Shown: positions 2,434 through 62,409 of the stretch, piece after piece
How positions within the stretch are numbered: the stretch's first letter is position 1
How the letters are laid out: every line of letters starts with the position of its first letter
Assembly: GCA_964035545.1 (NCBI GenBank)
Contig: OZ037768.1
Span: 23,586,819 to 23,650,818, forward strand
Reading direction: 5' to 3'
Source of the DNA: Bugula neritina
Lineage: Eukaryota; Bryozoa; Gymnolaemata; Cheilostomatida; Bugulidae
Length of the DNA stretch: 64,000 nt
Notes under the pieces: generated by a model
Seen by the model: only the letters and a program-made list of their open reading frames with translations
Database searches by the model: none
Told to the model about the DNA's origin: nothing
Program-made: the position numbers and the translations under genes

Positions 2434-4170
2434 GCACTGTTGCAGCCAGCCCTTGGAAATCCAGCTTTCCAGCTCAGCATAATAGCGCTCATGCATCAAG
2501 GGCGCTTGAGTGCACTTATACTCAGTTACATGAGTTTGCAAGCCTCTTAGAATTTCGCTGGACCATCGCCAACTCACAGTCCACCGGCCCTTGAAAAACT
2601 TTGCCACAAAGTCAGGGTCCTACACTTGCAGTGTCTCCTGATCACTGTTACGCCTGGCAATGACCGCATCGCCCGCAACATATGCCAACCTTCGGTCTGT
2701 ATTCACTTGCCGGGGAGAATCACAGCACCCTGCTGAACTAAGCGCACCCCAGACAACCGAATAGCTCGAGCTAGGCAACCTTTTGGCTGTGACCCCTCCT
2801 ATGTGATCAATTACGTCTCCCCCAAGGAGACAGTCAACACCAAGGTTGCCCAGCTTACTCATAACCAGCCCAGTGACACTAAAACAGTGCCTCTGCAGCC
2901 CTACCAAAATGCGGCTCAAGCCACTCACATGAGAAGCACTTACATCCGCTGTCAAAAGCGGCCTACTTAGCCGCAGGCCTATTCCCACCTCTACCCGCGG
3001 ACTGACCAAAGCTCGCTCGCTTCCAGTATCAACCAACACAAACATTGACCATTCAAAACAGCCAGGACAACTGGCATTCAACCTGATGTTAATTTAACAC
3101 CAGGTGCCCTCGACAGGTCCAACCTGCCACACGGCACACACGCACCGCTCAGCAACTCTCTCTTGGGAAAAAGCTGCCACTTTCGGTAGGTCTGGCCTAC
3201 TCGATCTCCATCAGAAGAGGTGCGTCGCCCCGGTCTGCACCTCCCACCAGAAAATCTTGCGCACTGACAGCTGCAGTTGCCTGCAGGCAGCTACTGATAT
3301 AGTGCTCGATGCTTCCACACCGAAAACACCCGGACTTCCTGGGTCCCCTCGTACTAGGTGCCTTACGTTTCTAGGTGCAGTCCTTCACTTTGTGAGGACC
3401 ACCACACCAATATCAAGCATTGCTATCCAGCTGCTGCTTCCCAGAAGCCGTCGCAGCAACCACACCCTGGCCTACTTTGCTACGGCTGGCCACTGCTCTC
3501 CGCGAGACCACCTTGTCTCGCACCCGTGCCAGCACTGACCCAAAATCGGCCGTGTAGGCATGGTCGTGAGTCACTGCCCACTCGTGAATCGCGGGCGGCA
3601 AGCCTTCATAGCACTGAGCTCGAAAGCCCAGGTCATTGCAGGACATGCAAGACATGCCGAACCTGCGGCCGAACCGCTCCAGGCAGTCCAAGAAGGTGTC
3701 AATGGTGTCACCTTCTTCCATCTTACTCGACAAAAACTTGCGCCATGCCTCCTGCCTGGGCATGGCATACTCGGCCCAAAGCGCCTCCTTCACGACGTCC
3801 CACTGGGACGCCTCCCCCATCATCATTCTGCTGTACACGCGAGCAGCATTGCCTCACAGCATTTAGGCTACACCAGGAGATCCGTCGAAGAAATATTCTC
3901 CACACGACGGTACCCCTCGTACTTTGCCAGCCACTCCGAGATGTCTTCGCTTCCATCTCCGGTGAAGGGATTCGCCAACTGACGAATCCTGGTGAGAATC
4001 GGCTCCCTTGGCCTGGTTTAGCATAGTAGCTAATATTTTAACGTCCACAAGGACCGGCACAGTCTCAGCTGCCGAGGTTGGAGGCACAGCTACGCTAGCT
4101 GCGCTGTCAGCCTTCAAACTCTGAGCCACGCTTCCAGAGTCCACATGTCTTTCTCCAGGCTTGGACATCT
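2434..4170 (-). mobile_element. Decayed Ty3/Gypsy-like LTR retrotransposon (gag-protease-RT start)
   Basis: Minus-strand pieces in order: a gag-like N-terminal frame starting at 4168; a gag core at about 3980-3413; a retropepsin frame at 3081-2620 with the catalytic motif FVLVDTGSERALVS and a later LGVDCLLGGDVI; and the start of a reverse transcriptase module at about 2607-2434 with GRWTVSWRW and ELESWISKGWL. In-frame stops and frame changes in gag show it is dead. The element is cut at the Penelope foldback near 2433, so most of the RT, the RNase H and the integrase are missing. Its GC content is visibly higher than that of its flanks. No LTR was identified with confidence. Confidence 0.75.
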
Positions 4171-5158
4171 TGAACTAATCGCAAAAACTGCCGAAATAGC
4201 TTGTTATCTAATTATAATAGACGGCAGCTCCAAGCTGCCTCCGTGACCTACCACCCCTGCGTCACACCAAGCGCCACTTCGACTTGCCCCACGCAAGCCA
4301 ACACAATTTGGCTCCCCAAACTGCCAAGCAGTACACACTGACGACTACACTAGTAGCCCCCTACCAGTAACACTTTACTGGTAGGCAACTAAACTTAAAA
4401 CTATAAATAAGAAACTGAAAGACTAACAATAACTAGACTATTAATATACACAAAGAAATAACTACCTACTGATAATACTAATTAAATATAACAATATAAG
4501 TATTCTAATAATAGTTATAGTTCAATGCTCAGACATTTATAAAAATGACTGATATTTTACATTACGGCGTACGATACGGCAATGTGTGAACAGGGGGTAA
4601 GAGATTGAGGACTATTATAATATAATATTGATTATTAGTTGATTATACAGATAATGTTATTGTTATCTCAAAACCCAAATTATATCACCAAAATACAGAC
4701 TATGAGTATGTCGACCAAGTTAAATTTAATAAATATTGAATTTAATGACTCGTGCTTAAGAACTAGAAGCTTTAAACTTACACAGTAACATTTATTATGA
4801 TAGTAGGACTAAGAGAAAGTTTTTCAGCCTCAGACTTATTTAACTCTAACATGTATAAGATTAGTGAAAGCTAAAGTTGAGAAGTACCTGCCGATTCAAT
4901 TTGATTTATTATATGCCGTTCATGTTGTTAAAGTTTTTGTTTAGGTTATTTAATTTTATTTCATATTCATTTGACATTGAATAAATAAATTATTGGTTTA
5001 GGAAGCTGATTGTAAAATATTTGTAGGGTCATTAAAAATTCTGAAACAACATATGTTGTATATGGAAAATAGTCGATGATTTGAAGATTTCAATTTGTAT
5101 TTGTTAGAAGCCTATTTTAAAGTTACTTTTTGCAGACTACCTCAAGTCCGTCTGTGAA
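4171..5158. other. Upstream flank of the Roco-caspase gene
   Basis: At 4171-4350 the sequence is still GC-rich and probably belongs to the 5' untranslated part of the Gypsy-like element. From about 4390 it is AT-rich with no coding frame. A pyrimidine-rich TTTTTGCAG at 5127-5135 could be the acceptor of a 5' UTR intron, 24 bases before the chosen start codon. No TATA-type promoter can be assigned. Confidence 0.5.
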
Positions 5159-8100
5159 ATGGGCAACAATAACAGTAAAAACACGCTAGGACATGGTTTG
5201 TAATACTGAAAATACATCATTATTGTTATTCTTTTAAAAGTCATTTGGCATCAATATTATTATTTATTTGAAAGATCATTTTTAGGCATAAATACTAATA
5301 CTTCATTTACAAAATTAGCTTAAGAGTGTTTTGTAATTGAAATCCGTTGTTACTCATTATAATTTAAAAAAGGTTATGTTTGACAATTGTACATGTCCAG
5401 TGTTGATATCTAAGTCAGCGAATTCTCAAAATGTAGTTCACTAAGGATTGTTGTTTCTCAAATGAAAACGTTTACTTGTAACAAATATGCAATTTAACTT
5501 AAGAATTAAATTAAAATGTAGCTTTGTCTCCTTTTTTGCAGAATTGAGATATAAAATTTGGTTCAGGCACTCTGGGGAGGAAGAAATGAACAAAATAGGA
5601 TTTACTGGGAGATGGATGTTGCAGTCTGCACCTGTGACTGATTACTCTAAGATAGATGTTGGAGAACATTACATCACACATATGTACATAGAATCAACAC
5701 AGGTTATGCCTCCTTTAGATGTTGTTGCTCCACGACTCACTCATCTCACCTTGTCTTTTCTATCTCCAGACCATGATTTAAGCTGGTAGGCCTAGAGCCT
5801 TATTTATATGTAAACAAATCTGAAAAAATGGTTTCAACTGTTTATTCATTGTAGCTTTTACCCGTCCCTATTGTGTATTGTTTATGTTTACAGTTTGAGC
5901 CGTCTACATTATTTGCGAGTTTTGAAATGCAAGAATTTTTCGGCATCGTTGAAGAAACTGCCTCCTGAAATATACAAAATCCGGTCTCTTGAAGAGTTTA
6001 GATTTGGCTCCAACCATTTAGATTTGTTTCAAAATGGGTAAATAATATATAAATCGCTAAGTTGATGTTTTTAATAATTTTGTTTGTTTGAAAATACATT
6101 GATTAGATCATCTATTCTTTTATAGAACAGAAGAGTATCAACAGTGGGTGACTTTGCCAATGGGCAGAAGCTATTTAAAAACTTTACCTTCTAACATTGG
6201 CAAGCTAACATCTTTAAAGAAATTGGTCATTGAAGCACCAAGTATTAAAACTTTACCAAAAAGGTTGCATTTTTATAGTGCTCCATTATCGACTGAATTT
6301 ATGCAATTTTTTTGTCAAATCAAGTGTTAAGTGTTGGATTTGAGAAAATAAAATGGTTTCATTTTTATTTTTGTCTAGTTTTAAAGGTTTGAAGAATCTG
6401 AAGACTTTGCAGTTTAAAGGTTTAAATTTTTCTTGTGGTTTCCCATGTCCGATAACATTTGTGTCTCTAAAGGAATTACATTTTGACTCGTGCCGGTTCC
6501 CTCAGCCACCAGATGGGTAAGGAAATGTTTCAGTAGATATGATGTTGCTCGTGTAGCAGCTTTTGCTATACTGGTAGCTCCTTTAACTCATTTACTTCAG
6601 TCTGACTACAGTACTGTAATTGTATATAATGCATCTCTACTATCTCAAAGTACCTGTTTATGTTTTATCTGGTTCCTGACCCTCAGGTTTAGCAGCAATT
6701 GACAGAGTAATAATTCTACACTATTCAGTGGTACTCTAAATGATAAATATGATAATAATTATAGGAGAGTGTGTCAATCTGTGAAATAGCTAAGTTCACT
6801 CTTTAATTAACCCAAGTATATAACTTTCTTCATAAATAATGCAACCGTATTATTGACCCATCGTGTGGAATTACTCAATCATCAAAGCCAGTAGTCAATA
6901 AAAACCTTTTCACATCCAAAGCTAAGCAACCAGCTAGCACATTTTATCTATTCATTTGATTGAGGCTTTTCATGGAGTAAGTTAAAATTTAATTACTTTC
7001 CACATGTTTGGATTCATATTCAAAAGAAGAATTTATCATAAATGCATGTTTTAATTTATATTAGATTACAAACCTGACAGTGTTGGCTGTTATAAACATT
7101 TTGCAACTTTCACAAGACTCCTTCCTAAATGCTGATTTGACTGTCAACCAGTGAATGATCTACCTGAACAGAAAGTCAAACTGGTTCTAATCTTAATTCT
7201 TTTTTTTTCAGCAATAGCTCAATTTAAACAATAAATTTAGCTGTTTTAGTCGCTTAGAAATTTCATACTGTTTTCAGCTGATCAAAACACAACCATGGTT
7301 AGTTGAAGTTTCAATTTGATTTTATAAGAATAAGTTTATTTATAATTGCGAAAAGTCAATAAATAGTGTATTGAAGAGCCGTCAATGCAGTGACTGTAAC
7401 CAGAGATAACTTCTGGCCGTGTCTTCTGCAGTTCTGAGCCCCAGTTGCCAAAGGAGATTTCCATGCTGACTGGCCTCACTTCACTGAGTCTCATTTACTG
7501 CAATGTTGGCAGTCTACCTGAGAGGTATGTATACGTGAGAGATTAGTCTAACAACAAGGTTTTTGTAATTGAATTTGTTTTATAATTTTTATCTAATAAG
7601 AGGTGTGGGTGACATTTAACAATCGGAATAATAGCTTCACCATTGTTGATAATCCGCATAATAAATTTCCATTAACAGCTTATTAGAACAAATTCAATAT
7701 GACTTCAGTTTCTTGGCAACTTATATCTCAAATTCAAAGTTTTAGGGATACTGAGTTTTAGAATTGTAGTGAAATTTTACGATAATAGTTTAGCGTGTGT
7801 TTTACCTAGAGTTGTCTTTTCAAATTTTATACTTATTTTCATAATAGCTTTATGATTTATGATCATATAAATCGATCCCGGCTGAAAATCAGAACATATT
7901 CCGATGTCTGTAAGCGCGACAATTTATCGGAATGACCGACAATTTGTTGGTGTGTTCGACTTTCGAATGTGACCGATAGAAGTTTCCAGAAGGGTTTTTG
8001 TCCCTGTATATAAAGAGGTGAGCTCACAGAGTAGATCAGTCTACCACTGGAGCTTGCAGGGTACAGACCTACCTATACACACTACTTTTCATACTACAAT

Positions 8101-11100
8101 AAAGATTCTTCTCTCAAGACTACAACTCTACCTGGTTTCTTCTATATTGGAGTTATGCTCCCCACTTAATTTCATTCTACCCACAAAACTACTACAGTAT
8201 TTAACCATTCAATCAACTTTTTGAAACTATTTTGTAGCGCAAGAGCTTTACAGAATCTGGAAGTGTTAGAGATTACTACGGATGATTTCTTTGCAAAATT
8301 TTCACCCGTGATATCAGAATTAAAGGCTTTGAAAGAATTAGACCTGGTAGCTCATGGAATATCCTCTCTTCCCATGAGGTAGTAACCTGATTAAAAAAGT
8401 CCTGCTTTAACTTTTATAAGATACTAACAGGACTTTAAATATCAGATTAGCCCATTGGTTTGATTTATCTGTAAAAAATTTTTGAATTACATAACTAAAT
8501 TTAAGTATTTTATGTTACCCAAGTATGTTTTTCATTTTATTAAATAATTTTGAGTGACTACATTACTTGAATTGACTACACAGAAACTAGCTCACAACGT
8601 GATGCCATGATTGGGCATTTCTCTCAAGTAAACATTTTCAGTTTATGATTGAATTTTCTTTATTTTATGTTATCTTGTATACCACTATTTTCAGCCTACA
8701 AAATCTTGAGCAGCTACACACACTACACTTCTTTTCTTTGGATTTTCGATCTGGTCTGCCAGAAGTTATTTCACATTTGCCATCTCTTAAACAGTTGGTG
8801 TTAAACAGATGTGGTCTTGCAGAACTTCCAATGAGGTAATAGTTTAACATCACCATGTTTTGATAATTTATTTGAAAAATATTCTGATCTATACTTGTTA
8901 CTAAAAAGGTCGTGTCCAACTGTTTGCCTTTCTCATGTTTTAGTTTGGAAAATTTGAAAAATCTAGAAATTCTCAACATTTTGGCAAATGATTTTCAAGG
9001 AAAACTCCCCTCTGTCGTTTTTACACTCGCCCAGTTACAAAAACTAAATGTTGGGAACAACATGCGTCTCACAGAGCTAGGAGCTGATCTGATGAAACTA
9101 AGCAAGCTCACAGAGTTGAAATGTGAAAATTGTTTCAATCTTGAGTTTCCAGACTATACTGTGTGCCAGCAGGGTATTGATGCCATCAAGAAGTTTTACA
9201 GGGACTGGGATACTGCAGCTGGCACAGGCGTGACTGTTCTACCAGTTGCTGTCGTTGGCAATACACTGGCTGGTAAAACCAGTCTTGTGTTGAGTTTGAA
9301 GGAAGAAAAGCAAGTCCTTACATTTCGTGATGAAACGTCGCCTTTGGATGAGACTACAAAAGTGTTTGATTTCCACAGTTTGAACCTATCAGATTCAATT
9401 GTCAGGTTCATTGATTTTGGTGGCCATGAAGTATATCATATGGCCTATCAGCTAACAATCAATAAGAATTGTGTCCCATTGGTTGTTGTTAATCTAGACG
9501 AATATCAAAAGTTGGCCAGTAGCCGAGGCGGCAGAGAGGCAACGAGAAGGTTGTGCTTGGATTGGCTGTCCCATTTCTATTTAGCATGTCCACATCTGGG
9601 TCCGCCAATTCTTGTGCTTTCTCACAAAGATCTTCTCTCAGATGTCGTGTTCGAGGAATGCAAAAGTCAGTTGCTTAGCTCAGCTGAAACTCTTCGAGTT
9701 GAGTTGCTTAAAGAAGAGAACAACATGTCTGAAGGCACAAGCGATTACTGCCGAATTGTTCATCTGTGTGATACCACTAAACCCTTGTTTCATCCAGATG
9801 ACATATTTGTTTTTGGTAATGAGCACGAAACAAAAGCCAGCATTCAAAGCCTCAGGCAATGCTTTAAAGGGCGCAGTAAGTTCAAAAGCCCTAACCCTAG
9901 GTTATGGGAACAAGTTGGTTCTTACTTGGAAGAACAACGATCTAAGCTGCTCATCTCCCTGTCTCAAATAAAGTCTAAGTTTCCCGATGAAAGTGGCATT
10001 GAAATCATTTTGAAAACTTTTCACAACAGTGGAAAGATTCTGTGGTTTGATCACCTATCAGATTTGCGCGAATATATTTTTCACCAAATACCAGCAATTG
10101 TAGAAATGATTGCTGTTCTTTTTCATCATGCTGGTGAAGAAAGATGGAAAAGTCGAGAAAATGATTTTGTTCCTTTTAAACATAAAAATCGCAATGTTGG
10201 GAAAATTGCCTACAAAGACATGGTGAAGAAATTTCTTGTGGAGGGTATTTTAAGTGAAGCTATTTTGGTAAATCTACTCAAACTAGAGACAGATTTTCCG
10301 GTTGACATGGCTTTGAAGCTACTTACCTCTTTTTGCATAATTCATGGGCCAATAACACAACAGGGCTGTGACGCTTTCATCCTGCCCTACTTTTCTAAGC
10401 AGTTCAAAGACCGAGAATGGAGAACTCATGGCTATCTGCAGCTTAGAGCAGATGTTGTGTTTGAGGGCCTTCCTCTGCCCAAATATGTCTACCAGTTGAT
10501 TACTGTAGCATTTTTGAATCATTTTTCAAACCCCACATATGCTTTGAAAGCCGCCAACAATGGAGCTACCGCTCAGTTTGGAGGATGCACTGCTCATCTG
10601 GTACACGATTGCTACACTAAAACTATCACCATTCAGGCCTCTACCCCTGTCGAAGCTGTCGGTAACTCATGGAGTATTTTGGTGCAGCTCCTAAAACTTA
10701 TTGTAAGACACACAACTAAAGTTTGGAAGGCATGTCGACCAGAAGTGTTAATCTACTGTTCCCACTGTCTCTTTATCAAAGCTGAAAATCCTGACTACCA
10801 CGTCACACCTTCCTGGTTTCAATCCCAATTAAATATGACAGACATGCCAGTGTTTAACCCACTTGAGCCTGTGGCCTGTGAAAATTCTAAACTCGATAGC
10901 AACGGGCAGTTGACTGTGCCCTCCATCCTTCGTTTCCCTTGTGAGTAGGTTACTTTATCATCTTGTACAACCAGATATTGAAATCATAAAACTAAAATAG
11001 GTTATAATATGAAATGCTTTTAACACACTCTGTTGCAGGAAGTTTGTGTCAGTTTCTTGGGTGTAATTTGTGAAATTATTTTCTTTGCCCAATTAGCTTG

Positions 11101-13537
11101 ATACTTTGTAGGCTATTGCTCGGAAGGAGATGAAGTATCAAGTCTAAAGAACTATCTCAGTGCCCTGGAGAACACTCTTCCATCCAAAACGAGTTAGTGT
11201 CAAACTATTGCCTGCTTTTCAGTGCTATGAGACACAAACTGCAATGTTTCCAGTATTATTAGTCATTAACTACAGTCTACTGGCATCTAGAATAGTTTTC
11301 TTAGTTTGGTTATACACACTTTGAGTTGTTGATACCAGGTTTCTGCAATTATTATTATATTGCATATTATCTAATTATTGGCAAGCTGCTTCGTTTTTTA
11401 TTCTCGCTTTCTTAGTCAATAATCCACTTGCCTTTTCTAGGCCTTCAAATAACTACTTTTCATTTATATTTCATAAGGTTCTACACCAACAAAAGCAGGT
11501 GAATATCCTGACCTTGATGATCAAGATGACCTCGAAAATGTTGACTGCACGCATGAGAATGAAGAAGAAAGTGACATCTCTGACATCGAGGAGGCGGGTT
11601 ATGCTGACTTTAATAAAGCTGACCTTGACCCTCATATCTGCAACTTGATGCAACTCCAGCCAACCAGGAAAAGGAATATCAAAAAGCTGTTTAACAACAA
11701 GAAGGCGGTAAAACTTTAAGTTATTATATTCCAACTTGGATTATTATATTCCTATATTCCGTGATATTCTTTGTTGATTGTGCCATGAAAACTTTCTATT
11801 ACTGGTAAAACTCCCCCCCCCCCAAAGTTCTCCCTGTATGCTGGATTTATTAGCTATTATCTACTGTACTACCATGCCAACCCCGCACGGTGTTTGTTTT
11901 TCCTCTACGCTTCTTTTTCTCTCAGGTGTACGAGATGAGTGACCCTGTTAGAGGTCGTGCGATGATCATAAACATTGAGAACTTTCGCAAAGATGGCCGA
12001 CACCGCCCGGAGCTGACAAGAAAAGGCTCTTATATCGACTATCAAAACATTCGCAGACTGTTTCAAGATATGACATTTGATATTGTAAAGAAGGACGAAG
12101 AGATGTCAGATCTGTGCAAAAACGTTTGTATCCAACATAGTAATAAATAGATGTATGATCAACACAACCAAACCAAGTTCTATTTTTATATTGATTTTTA
12201 ATAGAAAAACTGACTATAATTAAGCATGTTTGACCAGCAGTTTAGCTAATTTAAACTTTTGTAAAAACATGGATTAGCTGTAAAGCTGATTCTAAAGTTA
12301 ACTAAGAGCACACCAGTTAATAGCCTGTTAACTGTTAACACTGACTTTGGTTTCATTCACTCACAGGAGATACTAGCCGAGATTAAAAAGGAGACGGAGT
12401 TGTCCGTCCACAAGACCCTTGGGATGTTCGTCCTCGTCATCATGTCTCACGGCTCGGCCAATAACATCTTTTATGACAAAGACTGCGTACCTGTGAATAT
12501 TATGACTGAAGTGAAAGACTTGCTTTCGGCCAGTCGTTTTCCAGCTATGAGAGGAAAACCTAAGCTGATAATACTTCAGGCATGCTCAGGCAGTGAGTCA
12601 TCGTGTCTGTGTGTTGATGAGTCAGCTTTATACTATATGCTGCTTATATACTGGTATACTATATATATTTTGTATACTATCTACTGTTTAATATATAGTG
12701 TATACTACATACTGGTATACTGTATATATTATACTGTATACTATATACTGTATATTATATTCTGCTATACTGTATATTATGTACTGTTCCAGGTCAGGTT
12801 GATCTTGGTGGTGCCACGAGCAACACTCAAACTGCTTTGCCAACTTCTACCATCTCAAGTGATGACCCTAGCTCTGTTGACAGTGCAACGCCATCTGAAC
12901 CAATCATTCCCTCAGCTGGGCCAGTACCCTCAGCCAGGCCAGTACCCTCAGCTGGGCTAGTACCTTCAGCCGGGCCAGTACCCTCAGCTGGGCCAGTATC
13001 TCCAGCCGGGCCAGTTACAGATATTGACGTTAGCCGACTGGATTACCTGGATGTTGATGATTTCTACATCATGAAGTCAAGCACAGAATGTAAATATAGA
13101 TAGCTGTCTTTTATTAGATGTATACAAAACTTACGGTTGGTTAATATTTCACTAACTTCTTTCCTAAACTCACCTTTCCTCTCATTAAAGCATTCACAGC
13201 AGGGAGGGATGACTCATACGGCTCGTGGTTCATCAGAGTTCTGGTCGCAACTTTCTACAAACACAGCTGTCACAGGGACGTAGATCAGCTCTTTCTAATA
13301 GTGAGTCATTCTGTTCTCTTTTTACTACGGCCTGCTCTCATTGGTCAATTCCTTCTAACCAACAGTGTAATTGGTTGTGCATTGCTCTGGTAGATACAGG
13401 AGAGAGTTAGACAGGCGAGTATTGCGTACATGAAGAAGACTGGCTTAGCTGTTGGAGGAAATGTTCCTTCCAGACCAGACTGTACTTTCACTCATGGCAG
13501 GAAACTGCTCTTCTTCCCAAAGGTCAACGAAAAGTGA
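5159..13537 (+). CDS. LRR-Roc-COR-caspase fusion protein (kinase-less Roco with C-terminal caspase)
   Basis: Sixteen exons: 5159-5195, 5542-5785, 5894-6037, 6126-6263, 6379-6516, 7432-7524, 8238-8378, 8695-8835, 8944-10940, 11112-11192, 11478-11707, 11926-12123, 12367-12592, 12793-13089, 13191-13300 and 13400-13537. All junction phases agree, giving about 1450 residues. It starts MGNNNSK, a candidate N-myristoylation site. LRRs fill about residues 90-440. The Roc GTPase has a P-loop GNTLAGKT (464-471), DFGGHE (516-521) and SHKD (585-588). COR follows to about 1024, then an acidic linker (1026-1128) and a caspase domain with MSHG (His1222) and QACSG (Cys1267). The LRR-Roc-COR part resembles MFHAS1-type Roco proteins, with a caspase where LRRKs carry a kinase. 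Inferred role: GTP-controlled protease in cell death or immunity. Alternative: two neighbouring genes, since reading through the exon 9 donor meets a stop immediately. Confidence 0.85.
5894..9120 (+). other. Leucine-rich repeat region built from modular phase-2 exons
   Basis: Domain entry within the Roco-caspase gene. Exons 3-8 (144, 138, 138, 93, 141 and 141 bases) all end in phase 2, and most encode about two LRR units of roughly 23 residues, ending in patterns such as GISSLPMR and GLAELPMR. The final LRRs lie at the start of the long exon 9. Because the exons are symmetric, whole LRR pairs can be added, lost or skipped without breaking the frame. LRRs usually bind ligands or regulate the GTPase in Roco proteins; the ligand here is unknown. 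Confidence 0.8.
7900..8175 (+). mobile_element. Possible solo LTR-like segment in Roco-caspase intron 6
   Basis: The segment contains a TATATAAAG box at about 8007, then an AATAAAG signal about 90 bases later, followed by a pyrimidine-rich end. This order (TATA box, short transcript start, polyadenylation signal) is typical of an LTR. I could not define terminal TG..CA ends or a target-site duplication, so this is tentative. Confidence 0.25.
9215..10940 (+). other. Roc GTPase and COR dimerisation domains
   Basis: Domain entry within exon 9. The Roc part has a G1 motif GNTLAGKT, DFGGHE as the G3/switch II motif, and SHKD in the G4 position. All are compatible with nucleotide binding; SHKD departs from the classical NKxD, as is common in Roco proteins. 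The COR part follows, with the typical FHNSGKILWF and ILPYFSKQF segments. COR normally mediates dimerisation that controls GTP hydrolysis. No protein kinase motif follows, so this is not an LRRK orthologue; MFHAS1 is the closest animal layout. Confidence 0.85.
12620..12790. repeat. TATACTGTATAT low-complexity repeat in the caspase intron
   Basis: An imperfect repeat of TATACT/TGTATAT words fills the intron immediately after the exon with the catalytic cysteine. It creates a spurious open frame rich in Tyr and Ile; the donor GTGAGT at 12593 and the acceptor before 12793 exclude it from the message. Confidence 0.7.
12905..13015 (+). repeat. Coding 18-bp minisatellite in the caspase linker
   Basis: About six copies of an 18-base unit (CCAGTACCCTCAGCTGGG and variants) keep the frame and encode PSAGPV-type hexapeptides. 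They sit between the large and small subunits of the caspase domain, where caspases are processed on activation. The copy number is likely polymorphic. Confidence 0.8.
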
Positions 13538-13618: not shown

Positions 13619-13624
13619 AATAAA
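13619..13624 (+). terminator. Polyadenylation signal of the Roco-caspase gene
   Basis: AATAAA lies 82 bases after the stop codon at 13535-13537. It is the first canonical signal downstream and supports ending the gene here. Confidence 0.55.
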
Positions 13625-14980: not shown

Positions 14981-17900
14981 TTACACTTGCTCATCCTTAT
15001 AGCCTAAGTCCCCGGTATTGGTGTCCATAGTGTTGGTGTTCAGTGGGTACGTCTCGTCACAATCCCCCTCCGCAGTGCTGGGTACACTGTGGCTATAACT
15101 TGAGGGTAGGACCGGAGGAGGGGGTAGCATCTGACTGTATTCCTCGGCACCCGTACCTTCTGCAACAAAGAGTATATGACTTACTATGAGCTCTACACTC
15201 TAACTATGAGCTCTACACTTTAGCTATGAGCTCTACTTTAGCTATGAGCTCTACACTCTAACTATGAGCTCTACACTCCCACTATGAGCTCTACACTCTT
15301 ACTATGAGCTCTACACTCCTACTATGAGCTCTACACTCTAACTATGAGCTCTACACTCTAACTATGAGCTCTACACACTAACTATGAGCTCTACAATCTA
15401 ACTATGAGTTCTACACTTTAACTATGAGCTCTACACACTAACTATGAGCTCTAGAAGAGGGGTGGGGGAAGAGAGAGAGTTGAGAGGGAGAAGATAGAAA
15501 GACTTACCGCCGCTGCTCAAGTCCGTGTTGGTGTTGTAGTCCCTCCCAGAGCCGGGGTTTGAGTGGCTCAACATCTGATCTCGCTGACTTCTCTTCTTCC
15601 TGCGTTTTCGCTGCTGATTGACTGGCGGGTGGTCACTGGGTGCAGGAGAGTGGCAGTGAGGGACGGGTCTCAGACCTTCCAGTAATAATATAGTAGTTAA
15701 TAATTATACAATAAGTCCTGTGTGCCAGACACCCCAGGGCAATGGGAGCTGCAAGAAAGCAGCTTGAAAAGGTATTTCAAATCCCACTGCAAAATAATTC
15801 AATAAACACATAAAATATTTTCAACTACGGCCGTGACCTTCAACTAACCTTGAGGATGCGGTAGTTTATTATAGTGAGTCGGAACAGGCGGGGCAGGGGA
15901 GCCTTCCTTCGTGGTTCTAGGTAGGAAGGTGCTGAACTGCGGGGTGTTGGAGCGAGACCTCTCGTACTGCTGGTGTACGTTGTAGTGTGGCAAGGAACCA
16001 TGGGAATAGTGATGACCATTGGCAGCGTCGTGCTGACTTCCGGCATCTAAAGCACACATAGACATAGAGAGTATATTATATACATGTGTACACATAGACA
16101 TAGAGAGTATATTATATATACATGTGTACACATAGACATAGAGAGTATATATATATACATGTGTACACATAGACATAGAGAGTATGATAGTATATATTAC
16201 CTATGACGCTGTGATGAGAGCTATGAGGATGCTGCTGAAAGGAAGAGGGGGCGTGTCTGCTGCCGTTACTATTATAGTGAGGGTAGTGCTGCATCAAATT
16301 GTAGTCCAAGTGTTTCGTGTCCTATAAACAGTGAAGTTTATAATCATATATAATATAGTGTGTATAGTATAACGTGTAGTGTGTATTATACCATCTAGTA
16401 CAGTGTATATTATAATATCGTAGAATGTATATTTTATTATAGAATACAGTGTATATAACGTATACTATTACACAGAATACAAGCAGGTAAAACATCCACC
16501 TGGTGGTTCTCATTGGCTGCATAACTTTCATCGAGTTCATTCAGTGGATTTATATTCAGACTGATTCTCTGGGAGTGAACGGAGGACAGGGTGCCGTTGG
16601 AAGGGGCGGACATTGGGCCCACCCCGCCATTCATTGTGACAAACTGCGTGGATCCGTTGACACTCGGCTGTTTCAGCTGCTCTCCGTACAGAACTTTGGA
16701 GGCGTCTGCAAACTTGTTGTGACTTCCTCTTCCTCTTGCTAACAATACAACGGGGAGACAATAGAAACAACACATCAGAATTGTCTTCTCTTACATTCTA
16801 TTAGAGAGAAGACAATTACATCAGCTGCTTGTACTCTAGCTGAATTATAAAGTTTTGAGAAATCTAACAGAGTATTGGGATTATTAGTCTACCCATGTAA
16901 GCATATAATGTCGAGTATGTAAACAACAATGTATGTACACTCAAGATATTTGTATTCTATGTTATCAATGCGGTCAAAAGAATACATCAATATTTCTACA
17001 GGCGAAAACATATAGTTCTAAACATATACACATATAATTCTACACGTGTGTAGATATACAATTCAACACATATAGATACAGCATGCTCACCCAACACAGT
17101 TCTGCGACGCTGCCGCTGCTTGAAGCCGCAGACGGCTACAAACACTATGAGTATGAGAATCATGAGACCGAGCACCGAGCCGAGAATTATGTAGAGAAGA
17201 TCGCTGTCGCTCGTCAAACCAAAGATGTTCTTATCTTTGTCAGCGTTGATGTATTTCTGGTCGCTATTAGTTCCTCTTGTATCTGATCCGGGGTTGTCTC
17301 CACTGACGAGAGTTGGGAGGGAGTAGTCTTCAGTGTTGTAGTTTGCTGAAAACACAAGGAAAGAGTTTACAGGAAGACAGAGTGAGTTTTAGCACACAAG
17401 GGAACTTCACAGTAGAAGTGGGTAAAGGAACATCATTTATTCTTTTATTTAGGAGAGAAGAAAAGAGAAATTAATGATACCGAGTTTTGTGAGAGATTAA
17501 TAAGTAAGGAGTTCAACCAAACAGGAAGTGATAAACTCGTCGTACCGGAGAGCGAGTGAGTGAGCACAAAGCTGGGAGGACTCTGACCGTACGAGTTCTC
17601 GGCCGTAACTCTCACTCCGTACTTCTCTCCCGGAGACAGACCAGTTATGGTGGCTTCCATCACAACGTAGGACGGCTCTGCTAGGACAGACAGCTGTGAC
17701 CACGTGACATCCGCCGGCATGTCCCACACCTTGTACTGTAACACAACACAATAAACTGAAGAGAATTTCAAATGTATGCAGACAATGTGACACGACTTTA
17801 GCACTCTCGTAATATTTTAAAATATTGATAACATAATTACAAGTGAACTGAATTGCGATATTATATGTAAAGGTTATATAATGTAACTTACATCTTTTAT

Positions 17901-18670
17901 AAGTACTATTTTGTGAATACAAGTGGAGATACTTGGTCTAGACGTGGAGTTAGTTAACATGAATGAGTAGCACTATGAGTGAGTTGCACTGTGAGTGAGT
18001 AGCACTATGAGTGAGTAGCACTGTGAGTGAGTAGCACTGTGAGTGAGTTGCACTGTGAGTGAGTTGCACTGTGAGTGAGTAGCACTGTGAGTGAGTAGCA
18101 CTATGAGTGAGTAGCACTGTGAGTGAGTAGCACTGTGAGTGAGTTGCACTGTGAGTGAGTTGCACTGTGAGTGAGTAGCACTGTGAGTGAGTAGCACTAT
18201 GAGTAAGTAGCACTGTGAGTGAGTTGCACTGTGAGTAAGTAGCACTGTGAGTGAGTTGCACTGTGAGTGAGTAGCACTGTGAGTGAGTAGCACTGTGAGA
18301 GTTAGTTAGAGTCAGAGAAAGTGCTAGACAGTGAAGTACCTCAACTATGTATCTCTCCACCAGCTCCTTCTTGCTGCTGGGCCACACCACCGTCAGCTGA
18401 GTGCGACCCGTCTGCACGACGGAGGACACGGCGGGAGGAAACTTGGGAGCTGATGAAACTGCAGCTTTGAGCAGTTTGACTTTCCGCGTGCTGGGGCTCA
18501 CTTCCACCTGATTGTCCACATAAACAGCACCTATTCTGAATCGGTAGATCCCACCTTCAACATAAGAGTAGTACTAGTAGTAACAGTAGTAGTACTGGTG
18601 GTAGTAGTAGTAGTAGTAGTACTAGTAGTAGCAGTATTAGTAGTGGTGGTGGTGGTAGTGGTAGTAGTAC

Positions 18671-18705
<35 letters not shown>

Positions 18706-18734
18706 ATAGTAGTACTAGTAGTAACAGTAGTAGT

Positions 18735-18769
<35 letters not shown>

Positions 18770-21700
18770 CTAGTAGTGGTAGCAGTAGTTAGTAGTAACA
18801 GTAGTAACAGTAGTAGTACTAGTGGTAGTAGTACTAGTGGTAGTAGTGGTGGTGGTAGTAGTACTAGTACTAGTAGTAGTAGTACCTGCAGAGAGACCAG
18901 CTAGTCTGTACTCATTTGTCTGCATAGAATCAACCCGCAGAGTGAACCACTTTGACCAGCCATCTGGATCCAGTCTCTTGTACTGTACTTTATACATAAC
19001 GACAGGCACACCCCCTGATACAGGGGTGTAAGTTATTCTTACTTCAGTAGAAGATATGACCTCCACCACTGGCATGGTTGGGGCGACTATAGCTATAAGA
19101 AGTGTAAGTGTATTACTCATGATATGTATTATATATACAGTAATATATCATATGATACTCATGATATGTATTATATATACAGTAATATATCATATGATAC
19201 TCATGATATGTATTATATATACAGTAATATATCATATGATACTCATGATATGTATTATATATACAGTAATATATCATATGATACTCATGATATGTATTAT
19301 ATATACAGTAATATATCATATGATACTCATGATATGTATTATATATACAGTAATATATCATATGATACTCATGATATGTATTATATATACAGTAATATAT
19401 CATATGATATCTGCTGTATATAACCAAATAAACAAACTGATTCAATAGTCAGCAAATCATTAGCTCAACATCAGTAGTATCTATACACATGGAAAACTTC
19501 CCACCAGTGATCAGTTTCCATGGTGACAATATTACTCAATGACAGGAACAAAACTTCAGAGCTATCCTACTTATGTTTTATAATGTTTGTAACCAAGTTA
19601 TCCTTCCAGTTCAACTTCATAATGTCTCAAATTGAAACTTCAATCCGTTAGTTACGCACTTTGACTAGCTACATTATAAATACAGTATAAATATAAACTA
19701 GATGTTAGCATGAGGCATGCATCTACCTGTTATAACGGGTACGTAACTACAAAGCAACTAAATACTACCAACTATAAGTATAAGTGCTACTAGCTCCGAG
19801 TTTTGTCACAGTATAGGTGCTGGGGGCAAAACATTTCTATGGGGCAACAGATTTGAGGGGCGATATGACAATAAATGCTGTCTGTAAATCTTTGAGTTTT
19901 CAATTCAAATAGTAGTCACTTACTTTTGGAAGGCGTAGTTGTAGTTGAAGTCACGAGTATACTATTAGGGGACGTTGGTGATGGGGTTCGCTCTGAAAGC
20001 AAATGGACATGCCAAGAACATTAGTCTATTAATAAAGTCGCAAGGTGAGATATACAGGCAAGGAAAAGGCTAATACTACTCTACGTTGATAAAGCCTTAG
20101 AAAGTCCACTACAAAAACTAGTCCATGTAAAGATAAGACAAAATGTTACATGGTTTTTAGTCTGTAGCATTATGAAGGATAAAGCTGGTTATTCAGGAAA
20201 AAGAGAGTGAGGCATCTTTGTTAGAGTTTTGCATGAAAACCAAAATTAAATTACACAAACGTGTTTATAAATTCAAACTCAAACAGAGATCCCAATTCAC
20301 GTGGATTTCTGTTAGGAAAAATATTTCAGGTGAAAGTAGAGTAAGTGTGCTTTTATTTTTAATATCCATATGAAACTTTATACTACTCACTGCAAAAAAA
20401 GAATCATTCTGAAAAAGATTCTTTTTTACAAAAAGAGTGGTGGTCATAAGATGAAAAAATTACCTTGCTCAAACAGGTTAGTTGGAGTGACAACAGCTAT
20501 AGCACTACACAATACACAACTTTACTTTCACCTGCACACAGGTTTGACGTGAGAGAAATAGAAAACAGTGCATCAAACAGATGAGTTGGTAGCATTTTAT
20601 TGTTTGATTAGTTACAAAGAGCCAGCACCAAGAGAGTAGCTAGGGGTTACTATACAAGCAAGGCTACCTATTGCGGGCGGGCTGGAGAGGACCCTCAAAT
20701 AGGCAGTCGAGTTTGTGGATCCGTACTGATTAGCAACTTGACAGCTATACCATCCGGTATCAGCTGGTGTCAGCTGCATGATCACTAAGATGTTCATTTG
20801 GATGAGCCGGCGGGCGGGTACTGCACTCAGCTGGACGCCGTCTTTATACCATCCGTACTCGGCATCGTGATCGTTGACTATACACATGAGTCTAACATCG
20901 CTGCCAGAGCTACGAGTGGCATTCTCTAGCCCAGTGATGACTGCTGGAGGCCGACACTGATTGACACACACAGGTGCTTGCAAAGTGGCTGTTAGTTGCG
21001 TGACAGCAGCAGCGGGTGGTTGGGAAGCAGAAGACAGTGAGACAGCTAACAGTAGAGAACAGCAGCATGTGACAGTAGCATGTGACAGCAGCACTAGCTA
21101 AAACTCATCTCCCTATTGTACATTGTTAGCAGCTATTATATAATGCTACAGAAATTTTAAATGTGAAAATTTGCACTTCTAAAAAGCTATCAAAAACAAG
21201 TCAATGTTAAAAGGTGCATATTGTGGAATAAGACAGGGTGGGATAGAAACACTAATCAGTATTTAGTACAGTGAGATGGTTAAAACATTCATTTGCTATA
21301 AGTCTCGGAGATTTATTGTTACAAAAAGCAAACAGTAGGAAATGTTAGTATAATAAATAGCGGACAACTCCAGTGTGTAGCCAGGGTTAGAAGAGACAGG
21401 GAAAGACAACTACTGTACAGACAAGCAACAGCTGATATATAACTGCAGCAACTACATACAAAGGGTGTAAGCAGATACCTGTAATTGGGGTTGTCTCCTC
21501 ATCGCCAAAGGTTGGATCCAGGCGAAATCTAACACTAGGGGGACTGTCTACTTGTATGTTGTTACGATACAGCGCCACTATGATGAACTTGTACTTTTGA
21601 CCTGATGAGATGATGTAGTTTAATCAAACATAGCAATATAATACATATAATATAATATACATGTATATAATATAATATATACATGGTAATATATATAATA

Positions 21701-24700
21701 CAATACATATAATATAACATATACAATATAATATAATATATACATGGTAATATATATAATACAATACATATAATATAACATATACAATATAATATAATAT
21801 ATACATGGTAATATAATATATATAATATAATACATATAATATAACATATACAATATAATATAATATAATATATGCAATGTAATATAGTAACATATCAAAT
21901 CATATTATATAACACAGTATAAGAAGTGCATACAGTAGACTAATATTAGCATGCAGTATACAAGAAATAGAAATATAGTCACAACTGCCAAACTGTTTAT
22001 ATCTTGCATATCATCTTCAGCTAACTGTCCTCACAGCAGCAGAGAATGGGGTTTCTAACTTTTCCTAACAAGAGTTGCCGTCTTTGGAATAGTAGTTGAA
22101 CTGTTTACCTGCCACGAGGTCGTTGTTGACCTCCACGGAGCTGGTCTGCCTGGGTATGTCTCTCAACACAACCAGCCAATCATCTCCTGCGGTCTTCGCC
22201 TTCACCCAATAGGAGAGCACATTACTTAACCCCTGAGTAGACCAGGTAAGTTTGACTCCTTCCCTCCTGATCTGCTCCACGGAAGGCTGGCCAGGAGCCG
22301 GTTGGGCCGCAGTGACGGCTACACGAGAGTAAGAGTAGAAACACGAGGGTTAGACATTTACATGAGAATTCTTAAAACTCCAAGCCTAAAACTACTCGAC
22401 TTTGATTCAATGGCATCTCTTAGATCTTTAGAAGACTTAAGATTTACTGATCGCATTTTATACTCTTTAAATATATTCCTAGAAATGGCAAGACAAAACA
22501 TATAACTTTACACAATGCCTTAACTAAATATAACGTGGACATTAATCACCAGATAATATCATACAGAATAAACTCTGTAAACATTGCACGATATGAAAGG
22601 AATAGGGCAGAGTTGAGTTGCCAAATGAGGGGCAACTCCAAAGAGAATACAACTCCTGAGTGAAATACTACATCTACAGCTGCGTACCAGAAGCAGACGT
22701 GGTGACTACAGGAGCAGACGTGGTGGTGGTGGTTGTGGACGTGGTAGTAGTCGTCGTCGTGGGTTCCTTAACAACGTGCAGCTTCACATAACCGCTGTCG
22801 GAGCCGACATCATTACCCACAATGCACTGGTACAGCCCGGCAGCATCCGAGGTGAGGTTTGATATCGTCAGCGAACCTGGTAAACAACCAAATCACACTT
22901 AGTCATGGGAGTTATTCAGTGTACTGGAAAACAGTTTACAGGGTCTGGGAATTATCTTCTCACTGCAAACTGACGAGTAAATATTGCACAGCAAACAGTG
23001 TATTACAGCATTGCTAACTAAAATGTGCTGTTGCAATGACTAAACCGTGGAGATCGGAAGCACAAATCGGCAAAATTGAAATGCAACGAATAAGGTATCC
23101 AAATCCAGCGCATCATAAAATCGTCTCAAAGCTGAGTTTCAGGTTGGAGATTGCTAGTTTTTCAATTTATTTTTCAAAAAATGATCAAATTGAGATTTAA
23201 TTACATGTACATAGGATATGTATATTGTGGAGACTGGCATTATGTTTAGTGAGAGTGGAAGTGAGAAGCTAAGCTACAGCAGGGTGAGCACACAGTTTCA
23301 ACCTCAGCATGTGCCGGACATGTGTGTAGGCTTAAACAGTAACTAATATATTGCATAACATGGCTGATAGTCATTTATCAATTTAACATTTCCTGTTCGC
23401 TGATAAACTTGAGGAAAACATCTAAAACTGCTAGCAGACACCATCTGTCTACATTCTGTAGGATCCATGAGGAACTAGAGTGGGAGGAGCTAGAATGGGA
23501 GGAGCTAGAATGGGAGGAGCTATTATTTTGTACAAAGAGACAGAAATTAAAAGTGAATACAAAGTTCAAAGATTAGAGGTGAGAAATGAGGCTGCCGAGT
23601 GTTATAGCTTGAGGCAGCGCAAATAGGTGAACAGCAGGGGCCTCCACTACCCTCAACACTGACTGTGAGTAATTAATCTAGAGCTGATATGCAGTTATGG
23701 ACTCAAGTGTTTGCTCTTAATTAGTATCTAGTATAACATTATTGATCAGCCCCCAGCTTCAACTCAATTCTGATTCACTCTCATCCAGCTGAGTGCAGCC
23801 GATTTTAGGTGCTGCCTCAATTAAGGTGTTGTTACACACCAAACTTAGGGGCCTCAATTAAGGTGTTGTTACACACCAAACTTAGGGGCCTCAATTAAGG
23901 TGTTGCTACATGCCAAACTTAGCAAACTATATATAAGAGACTTTAGTGTACAATAGAGGAGTTGTCCTCACTCCTCACACAGAACTGTCCGTAAAGTAGC
24001 TGGTGAACCGACAGTTATATTCTGCTCAAATGACTTCATTTCTATTGAACAGGAAGACCCTTTGCCTGTGCATAAAGCGCTGCAGTTAATCACTACTCAA
24101 ATTTAATTGGTCAGCTATAAAAAACGAACCGAGAAATGTCTTGCAAATTACCTACTAGGCTTTTCTTCTGAAATGTTTATAGCATTTCTTTCCCAAAATA
24201 ATAAGAAATGCATATATTTTTACTGCAGAATACACCCAGTGTGCCGGCAGGTGCTATAAATCTACTGCAGATTCACTCACCCTCGTAATGCTGCAGATCT
24301 TCCCCGTTGAAGTACCACTGATACTCTACGTCTGCAGCTGAGTCGTTCTGCAGAGAACACTCAATCTCCGTAGACCGAAATTCTACGGCATGTTTTATGG
24401 AGCTTCTCGGGGAAACCTTAGGCTTAGCTAAAACATATCGGCATTTGTGTGAAGGAATTGTACAACTCGGGCCAAAACATGGAATTCATAACAGGAAATA
24501 TAGAGAGAACATAACTCATAGCAAATATATTAACTAACAAAGAAATTAATACTTTCATACAATAAAACATCAACTGAGAAAACTAAACTTATTATCATTA
24601 ATATATTAATTTATTATCATTAATATATTAATTTATTATTATTAATATATTAATTTATTATTATTAATATATTAATTTATTATTATTAATATATTAATTT

Positions 24701-39745: not shown

Positions 39746-45688
<5,943 letters not shown>

Positions 45689-62249: not shown

Positions 62250-62286
<37 letters not shown>

Positions 62287-62372
62287 GTTGCTGCTACTAC
62301 TACTACTACTACTACTGCTGCTGCTGCTACTACTACTACTACTACTACTACTACTGCTGCTGCTGCTACTAG

Positions 62373-62409
<37 letters not shown>

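Follow-up and report, generated by a model that had tools for sequence, protein, structure and literature searches.

Receptors of the NLR/STAND type, such as animal NLRs, plant NLRs and APAF1, combine a repeat sensor, a nucleotide switch and a death effector, and they are clustered and recombining. The Parkinson protein LRRK2 belongs to another family, the Roco GTPases. The number of Roco domain combinations in animals is put at up to forty, and brown algae have ROCO proteins that are candidate immune receptors (PMC11378527, available portion). In Trichoplax, Roco proteins encoded by at least 17 genes carry CARD and death domains (PMC4104024, available portion), and amphioxus has LRRs-caspase and TNFR-caspase hybrids (PMC2575513, available portion). 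No Roco–caspase protein was found in the literature among the matches listed. The novelty that a sequence-only reading had claimed for such a protein in Bugula neritina is to be tempered in view of these amphioxus and Trichoplax proteins and of the many animal Roco combinations.

A predicted Roco–caspase gene on chromosome 4

The window analysed here is a stretch of 64,000 nucleotides from chromosome 4 of B. neritina (assembly GCA_964035545.1), and the predicted product of the gene described below, at 23,591,977-23,600,355 of that chromosome, has the domain order LRR–Roc–COR–linker–caspase. The mitochondrial COX1 reads by genetic code table 5, with ATA as Met and AGA as Ser at conserved places, so that a sponge or tunicate source is not borne out. 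Conceptual splicing of the + strand between 5159 and 13537 joins 16 exons, all bordered by GT-AG and matching in phase, into one open frame of 1452 aa, as the sequence-only reading had proposed. Its motif placements (GNTLAGKT, DFGGHE, SHKD, MSHG and QACSG) were recovered at the same sites. All exons given below are on the + strand.

Exon 1 (5159..5195) holds a candidate start codon and encodes the peptide MGNNNSKN, which we take to fit the N-myristoylation consensus MGxxxS; the tandem copy has a corresponding N-terminal peptide, MGNNNSRN. This exon is the least certain part of the model, and an upstream exon is possible because the frame is open, by eye, for a few codons 5′ of the ATG. Exon 2 (5542..5785) encodes the region preceding the LRRs. 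The LRR exons 3-8 (5894..8835; individually 5894-6037, 6126-6263, 6379-6516, 7432-7524, 8238-8378 and 8695-8835) are all entered in phase 2 and contribute to an LRR_14 match of 88.1 bits in the Pfam scan.

Exon 9 (8944..10940) carries the last LRRs, the Roc GTPase and COR. The G1 motif GNTLAGKT (9257-9280; aa 464-471, with Lys470), the G3 motif DFGGHE (9413-9430; aa 516) and the G4 motif SHKD (9620-9631; aa 585) are all present, and COR follows Roc directly, with a COR-A match that starts near 9896; this is the arrangement by which Roco proteins are recognised. In the window protein taken alone, Roc scores 20.0 bits and COR-A 13.6 bits, below their Pfam cut-offs of 27 and 35.3. When 14 Roc-COR exons of this genome, that of the window among them, are aligned, Roc and COR-A each match all 14 (E no higher than 0.1; best values 1.7e-8 for Roc and 2.7e-10 for COR-A), and COR-B matches just four. 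When the profile of these exons was compared with solved structures, entry 3dpu was the best match (E 1.9e-15); LRRK2 was matched weakly (E 0.005). We take 3dpu to be the Chlorobium tepidum Roco protein. A Roco protein is expected to bind and hydrolyse GTP and to form a nucleotide-dependent oligomer, which the window protein may do. A single-sequence AlphaFold2 fold of exon 9, with a mean pLDDT of 35.6, was set aside.

Scanned against Pfam at E up to 1, the 1452-aa protein showed no kinase domain after COR, and no WD40, ankyrin, death, NACHT, NB-ARC or cell-surface domain was matched in the same scan. A fragment of an LRRK or DAPK gene is thereby ruled out as its identity. Neither CARD nor DED was matched as a prodomain, which bears out the proposal that a Roco module sits where the recruitment domain would be.

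Two linker exons follow. Linker exon A (exon 10, 11112..11192) has phases 1-1 and is assigned from the phases in paralogs and from linker dN/dS. Linker exon B (exon 11, 11478..11707) encodes an acidic stretch and then a NIKKLF stretch; it contains a Met that is a potential internal start, and its SDISDIEE (11570-11593) is a candidate autoprocessing site. The caspase p20 begins in exon 12 (11926..12123), with the S1-pocket Arg in LTRKGS (12013-12030), and its catalytic part lies in exon 13 (12367..12592), with His1222 in MSHG (12442-12453) and Cys1267, the residue named in the earlier reading, in QACSG (12577-12591). Exon 14 (12793..13089) encodes an Asp- and Pro-rich intersubunit linker and the p10 start. 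Exon 15 (13191..13300) continues p10 with FTAGRDDSYGSWFI; 13191 is most likely its acceptor, acceptors at 13200 and 13203 being likewise in frame, and choosing 13191 lets the p10 stretch SFTAGRDDSYGSWF align to caspase-6 without gaps. Exon 16 (13394..13537) ends p10 and contains the stop codon (13535-13537); an alternative acceptor at 13400 also keeps the frame. An AATAAA lies beyond the stop codon at 13619.

Peptidase_C14 matches the window protein with 99.4 bits. Both the p20 and the p10 half align to caspase-6, and together with the dyad this upholds the description of the caspase as complete. TRKGS, QAC and AGRDD align with the Arg, Gln and Arg of the caspase-6 S1 pocket, residues to which we presumptively assign the binding of Asp. 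The window caspase is a putative active protease.

A family with exchanged caspases

The window gene is one of about a hundred LRR-Roc-COR-caspase genes in B. neritina. At least 98 distinct Roc-COR exons were found in the genome, and 94 of these are followed on the same strand, at a median distance of 1.4 kb and at most 12 kb, by a caspase match; none of the 98 has one on the opposite strand. Within 5 kb, 92 such pairings were observed against a shuffled mean of 0.3, and chance adjacency of two genes is ruled out by these counts. A 95th pairing was read directly at its locus. The first pairing had left 13 exceptions, and the three of them that were inspected all had caspase exons. Internal stops occur in four of the 98 Roc-COR exons. 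A 2363-aa frame of one Roc-COR exon proved to be an artefact of N letters.

The LRR exons have multiplied as phase-2 modules in some paralogs, and locus L018 has four of them at an exact spacing of 824 bp. In the tandem pair, dN/dS is 0.51 for the LRR exons versus 0.19 for Roc-COR, with a range of 0.19-0.35 across switch and protease. Since dS is also higher in the LRR exons (0.27 versus 0.06), part of this contrast may come from gene conversion of the 3′ part. This pair gives no sign of positive selection on the LRRs, as 0.51 is not above 1. In the L012-L013 pair, p20 has a dN/dS of 1.07, on almost no divergence.

Four paralogs (L014, L021, L029 and L031) have Roc-COR parts that are 82-85% alike, yet two caspases that are only 38-42% alike, which shows that caspase effectors were exchanged between Roco lineages. 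Whether two of them have the same class of caspase or not, their introns are already divergent immediately downstream of the COR exon, so that only an interval, and no precise breakpoint, can be given for the exchange. The catalytic His and Cys are conserved in all 19 covered loci, the window included. The pocket residues are changed in several paralogs (LEVCSG, LETCSG, VACRS), and L014, L024 and L032 lack the Arg of p10; not all members need therefore be Asp-specific proteases.

Proposed function and alternative readings

We think it probable that the window protein, judged by its architecture, acts as an intracellular sensor, switch and protease in one polypeptide, similar to an NLR, in which caspase release would trigger cell death. 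The LRR array would recognise a ligand, upon which the Roc-COR module would change its nucleotide state and oligomeric state and so bring the caspase domains together or free them. The caspases could then self-process at two places, the Asp-rich linker (DxSD) and the linker between p20 and p10, and the released active caspase would cause the death of an infected or otherwise marked cell, which is the sense in which we infer an "executioner" role. The family would thus fill the role of NLRs, but its switch would be a Roco GTPase where NLRs use a NACHT or NB-ARC ATPase, and its effector would be built in instead of recruited by CARD or DED. The wording "GTP-switched, dimerisation-activated" in the sequence-only reading finds no support as it was put, as the C. 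tepidum protein runs against GTP-driven dimerisation: it is mainly a dimer when empty or bound to GDP, and GTP gives monomers (PMC5714945 and PMC11052575, available portions). The switch of the window protein may have either polarity.

A broader claim is more tentative, namely that these genes, about a hundred or more, form a Roco-based receptor class that has taken over the niche of NLRs, and whose sensor exons and caspases, including those with rebuilt pockets, may have been recombined in a genome nearly devoid of NACHT and NB-ARC. An exon-wise genome search, which split domains may escape, gave a single NACHT match and no NB-ARC match; CARD was matched four times.

The same architecture could serve allorecognition between colonies, with self/non-self death on contact, rather than microbial defence. 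Bugula is colonial, which fits such a role, and a large, clustered, recombining family with faster LRR exons would suit allorecognition and microbial defence alike. Contact recognition usually needs a cell-surface domain, however, and Pfam matched none in the window protein; we consider this reading improbable. We regard it as just as doubtful that the caspase performs non-lethal processing, in development, larval metamorphosis or polypide regression, and that the family expanded mainly by neutral duplication. Bryozoan polypides regress periodically, in keeping with a non-lethal role, and retroelement-like frames, seen by eye to adjoin tandem copies, could drive neutral duplication. Against this, 94 of the 98 Roc-COR exons are without an internal stop, the switch and protease of the tandem pair have a dN/dS of 0.19-0.35, and about a hundred kept copies are seemingly more than a developmental role asks.

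The Roco and caspase parts are very likely one protein, as judged from the linker. Its two exons are conserved in 16 of 19 paralogs, where each begins in phase 1 and the caspase comes next in phase 0. Six pairs, with exon A taken into account, give point estimates of linker dN/dS of 0.39-0.65. Because the aligner favours in-frame models, frame conservation across paralogs is not independent evidence, whereas linker dN/dS is. The other three loci (L019, L023 and L030) yielded another number of linker pieces; in L017, L020 and L023 the COR exon was itself split near its end by the aligner, and in L015 and L016 a spurious piece of three bases was inserted ahead of the caspase. A [DE]xSD motif is found in the linker of 17 of 20 loci.

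An alternative is that two head-to-tail genes were copied together and are transcribed separately, or that a single gene yields a caspase-only product as well. Past its donor the Roc-COR frame runs for only a few codons to a stop, and the genome has a stand-alone single-exon caspase (L001). The overhang, though, varies in length between subfamilies, as expected for an intron, one form being common to the window and L009 and another to L011-L013. Linker exon B has a Met in 14 of the 20 loci, and in 13 of these its position is about the same; a second, caspase-only product starting there is possible; it slightly raises the chance we allow this alternative. Six of the 20 loci have no Met in the relevant part of the exon. 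Since 94 of 98 loci keep the synteny, exon phases are conserved and linker dN/dS is below 1, separate transcripts for Roco and caspase are unlikely, and the alternative as a whole seems very improbable to us.

If the receptor reading is true, animals would have evolved a further large class of intracellular receptors besides the first, with a caspase under the direct control of a Roco GTPase. This would be one more case of convergence on sensor–switch–effector receptors, alongside those in plants, fungi, brown algae, bacteria and animals. Proteolysis would offer an experimentally simple readout for a question of long standing, how a Roc-COR switch affects the enzyme that follows it. The family of about a hundred genes and its caspase exchange, which go beyond the earlier single-gene reading, provide a natural set of swapped modules for testing which part sets the output.

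Comparison with known systems

The amphioxus hybrids share with the window protein a sensor fused straight to a caspase with QACxG, with no CARD or DED between; they are compared here by description rather than by gene models, and the word GTPase is absent from the available portion of PMC2575513. Trichoplax likewise shows an animal Roco expansion tied to death-fold adaptors, but there the domains are adaptors, and "caspase" occurs just once in the available portion of PMC4104024, in spelling out CARD. Brown-algal ROCO genes resemble the Bugula family in their LRR-Roc-COR layout and in having LRRs on exons of their own, which shuffle. They have one LRR per exon, whereas the Bugula family has about two (by eye), and neither "caspase" nor "effector domain" appears in the available portion of PMC11378527.

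LRRK1/LRRK2 and DAPK1 have the Roc-COR core in common with the window protein, which is without their kinase, WD40, ankyrin and death domains in the Pfam scan. Bacterial and MFHAS1-type Roco proteins are similar in that LRRs directly precede Roc and COR, a likeness of domain order and profile match, and the LxSPPxEVxxxG motif before Roc in the C. tepidum protein (3dpu) aligns with the window family. Unlike them, the Bugula family has a caspase after COR, joined by two conserved linker exons, and numbers about a hundred genes in one genome. With NLR/STAND receptors the Bugula family shares a repeat sensor, a nucleotide switch and a death effector in clustered, recombining genes; its switch, however, is a Roco GTPase rather than NACHT or NB-ARC, and its effector is fused rather than recruited.

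Structure and domain identity of the Roco–caspase gene

The gene at 5159-13537 (+) consists of 16 exons with GT-AG borders, which conceptual splicing joins in a single frame of 1452 codons plus a stop. In order, the predicted protein comprises an N-terminal region, leucine-rich repeats (LRRs; exons 3 to 9), a Roc GTPase whose P-loop lysine is Lys470, COR, the products of two linker exons, and a caspase bearing His1222 and Cys1267. Exon 15 most likely starts at 13191, because the resulting SFTAGRDDSYGSWF matches caspase-6 without gaps; the acceptors at 13200 and 13203 keep the frame too. The model is least secure at its start codon. If this is right, the N-terminus MGNNNS fits what we take to be the N-myristoylation consensus, and it is kept in a tandem near copy ~22 kb upstream, whose Roc-COR exon is 97% identical.

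Against the protein alone, the Pfam scores for Roc (20.0, cut-off 27) and COR-A (13.6, cut-off 35.3) both fell below cut-off. Aligning 14 Roc-COR exons of this genome, the window's among them, settles the Roco identity at the level of sequence profiles. At E up to 0.1, Roc was matched by 14/14 members (best 1.7e-8), COR-A by 14/14 (best 2.7e-10), and COR-B by 4/14. Amongst solved structures, the profile of this alignment best matched 3dpu (E 1.9e-15), which we take to be the C. tepidum Roco, followed by three chains labelled “Rab family” or “leucine-rich-repeat”, each near 1e-14, and by LRRK2 (E ~0.005). In the profile alignment, the motif LxSPPxEVxxxG directly ahead of Roc is common to our exons and 3dpu.

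The closest solved relatives of the caspase are caspase-6, caspase-3, CED-3, and caspase-9. The Arg of TRKGS, the Gln of QAC, and the Arg of AGRDD, which presumably form the Asp pocket, align with their caspase-6 counterparts. The catalytic His and Cys are retained in all 19 loci covered, window included, while other pocket residues vary among loci (LEVCSG, LETCSG, VACRS, LACRE, HACSG). We also observed a class of Roco-caspases (loci L014, L018, L024, L029, and L032) in which the residue two positions ahead of the catalytic Cys is Glu instead of Gln; the p10 pocket position lacks Arg in L014, L024, and L032, the three of this class whose p10 was read. Substrate preference in the Glu class is likely altered.

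Downstream, 17400-28600 (-) holds immunoglobulin and fibronectin III exons of an adjoining gene or genes (Pfam matches in six of nine frames tested), which probably encodes a receptor at the cell surface or a protein of adhesion. Long simple tandem repeats at 41200-42700, 51800-52700, and 62000-62500 give rise, on both strands, to long but meaningless open frames. Retroelement-like frames were noticed by eye upstream of the gene at 2600-4200 (-) and between the window gene and its tandem copy (stretch L010, 2400-8700 (-)). They are possible agents of duplication; the only one tested, the window frame 3416-3853, had no Pfam match.

A genome-wide family and the joining of its two halves

The genome searched (215,847,546 bases, 295 contigs) includes a 15,248-base mitochondrial contig whose COX1 fits the invertebrate code, with ATA read as Met and AGA as Ser at what we take to be conserved places. 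Another COX1 copy, nearly as strong, is found on chromosome 6 (11174072-11175412); contigs C196 (in two pieces ~2.8 kb apart) and C65 also match COX1, and contig C17 carries COX1 without TGA codons. A nuclear insertion and contigs of cobionts may account for these extra matches. Passages of the assembly report for Bugula neritina tzBugNeri2.1 give 216.00 Mb in 320 scaffolds, chromosomes of 35.64, 33.58, 32.42, 24.8, 17.72, 16.05, 15.81, 13.35, and 10.88 Mb, and a mitochondrion of 15.25 kb (PMC11480708).

Exon 9 of the window gene yielded 67 scored, nearly full-length matches among 175 candidates, and a second-subfamily query yielded 73 of 119. Their union comprises at least 98 distinct Roc-COR exons on eight of the nine chromosomes. 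The kinase-less Roco fused to a caspase described in the sequence-only reading, in one frame over 16 exons, was correctly observed and belongs to something larger than stated. The exons are often clustered, with, for instance, 10 lying at 34.24-34.62 Mb on chromosome 1 and 11 at 4.49-5.24 Mb on chromosome 6. An internal stop is present in 4/98.

Caspases were taken from a Pfam C14 search (150 distinct places among the matches listed, 176 reported) and a paralog p20 query (among the matches listed of 156 reported). With the Pfam C14 list alone, at least 85 of the 98 Roc-COR exons are followed, on their own strand and within 12 kb, by a caspase match; with both lists, the figure is at least 94, with 92 within 5 kb and a median of about 1414 bases. 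Among the matches listed, no Roc-COR exon has an opposite-strand caspase within 12 kb, and two have a same-strand caspase upstream. Across 200 shuffles, pairs within 5 kb averaged 0.3 and never exceeded 3, against the 92 observed. Three of the 13 exons unpaired under the Pfam C14 list (L030, L031, and L032) were read directly, and all have caspase exons; L031 belongs to the last four unpaired, which brings the paired total to 95. Merging gave at least 131 caspase loci, 94 with a scored Roc-COR exon upstream and 37 without, some of which may be parts of unscored Roco copies.

Other arrangements were also observed. Among the few of these 37 that were looked at, locus L001 has an entire caspase domain in one open frame or exon (125 bits), as opposed to the multi-exon family. 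In two others, L025 (chromosome 9) and L026 (chromosome 2), ankyrin and caspase frames occur together, apparently a second sensor-caspase design; the L026 model puts the ankyrin-like pieces first. Both chromosomes also hold clusters of further caspase loci that lack a scored Roc-COR exon. On chromosome 6 (14148625 and 14153371), a CARD match precedes a same-strand caspase by ~4.7 kb, probably a classical CARD-caspase. Large frames with a Polinton-type look by eye adjoin a Roco-caspase gene in L012 (60-3451).

Could Roco and caspase be separate products of two genes? As in the window, exactly two linker exons (phases 1 and 1, caspase phase 0) separate COR from caspase in 16/19 paralogs, counting L017 and L020, where the aligner also split the COR end; L019, L023, and L030 gave other piece numbers. 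Since the spliced aligner is biased toward in-frame models, selection on the linker is the stronger evidence for one gene. Linker dN/dS in six pairs, not all independent, was 0.54 (0.65 under slightly different borders), 0.47, 0.45, 0.39, 0.65, and 0.42, as point ratios with the L013 borders from another exon model than the phase comparison and some p20 ends set by hand. The open frame past the COR donor varies in length between subfamilies, as expected for an intron. What speaks for two products is a Met in linker exon B in 14/20 loci, at about the same place in 13, from which a caspase-only product by internal start is possible. Given the linker ratios and kept phases, we regard two separate genes as very unlikely.

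Divergence and exchange of the LRR, Roc-COR, and caspase parts

Comparing the window gene with its tandem copy gives dN/dS values of 0.51 for LRR exons 3-8, 0.19 for Roc-COR, and 0.22-0.35 for the caspase exons. The corresponding dS is 0.27 for LRR exons and 0.06 for Roc-COR, a contrast suggestive of gene conversion in the 3′ part of the pair. LRR exons are in phase 2 at entry and exit, the window's being 138-144 bases long (exon 6, 93). A motif scan, crude in that some exons were missed and a few were false, found four similar LRR exons in L018, at an exact 824-base spacing, and three that resemble one another in L014.

Loci L014, L021, L029, and L031 share 82-85% of Roc-COR. Their p20 regions are 89% alike in L014/L029 and 76% in L021/L031, and 38-42% between these two groups. 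The caspases of L021 and L031 are 62-63% identical to the window's, though their Roc-COR is only 32-33% identical. Of the 19 loci that have Roc-COR or p20, the 14 that have both entered the topology tests (L011, L018, and L030 dropped out because p20 extended beyond the stretch or did not fit the pattern, and L007 and L023 because Roc was cut). The grouping seen in Roc-COR is rejected by the caspase alignment (AU p 5.9e-7), and the one seen in the caspase is rejected by the Roc-COR alignment (AU p 8.3e-5). Among the four loci, DNA likeness stops 2-15 bases beyond the COR exon in 6/6 pairs and returns downstream solely within a caspase class, which places the caspase exchange in the interval from the COR exon to linker exon B.

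Proposed function and comparison with known systems

We consider it reasonably probable that the family is an NLR-like sensor–switch–protease repertoire built on Roco, its function being judged from domain content. The LRRs would act as sensor and Roc-COR as switch, after which the caspase domains would be brought together or set free. Self-cleavage could follow at two places: the acidic linker, which carries [DE]xSD in 17/20 loci, and the p20–p10 junction, where SSDDPSSVD and LDVDD are candidate sites in the window; the freed protease would kill or reprogram the cell. Passages on the C. tepidum Roco describe mainly dimers when empty or GDP-bound, and monomers with GTP, the active form (PMC5714945, PMC11052575). 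A GDP dimer might keep two caspases apart until GTP releases them into a larger assembly; alternatively, the active form might be the dimer.

An exon-by-exon genome search at E up to 1e-3 gave one NACHT match, four CARD matches, and no NB-ARC match, not even APAF1, and domains split between exons may therefore have been missed. These counts point toward a scarcity of NACHT and NB-ARC but do not prove it. That a Roco-based class took the NLR niche, with recombining sensor exons and caspases and NACHT/NB-ARC all but absent, is a tentative suggestion to which we give somewhat less than even weight. Together, the linker exon B Met and what the NB-ARC search may have missed count slightly against this suggestion and the sensor–switch–protease reading, and slightly in favour of two genes.

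No Roco–caspase fusion appears among the literature matches listed for Roco, caspases, and this species (titles and abstract starts), or in passages of PMC7159879, PMC8195603, PMC6337361, PMC7836458, and PMC13326412, and the words caspase and leucine-rich are absent from both Bugula genome papers. As many as forty Roco combinations are mentioned for animals in passages of PMC11378527, and Roco–caspase could be one of them. The scale and modularity of the family would surprise a specialist. Its nearest counterparts in the passages available are the LRR–caspase and TNFR–caspase hybrids of amphioxus (PMC2575513), the Trichoplax Roco proteins that carry CARD and death domains (PMC4104024), and the ROCO receptors of brown algae, with their shuffling LRR exons (PMC11378527). 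Receptor–caspase hybrids and Roco proteins are each already known, and the Bugula family joins both kinds.
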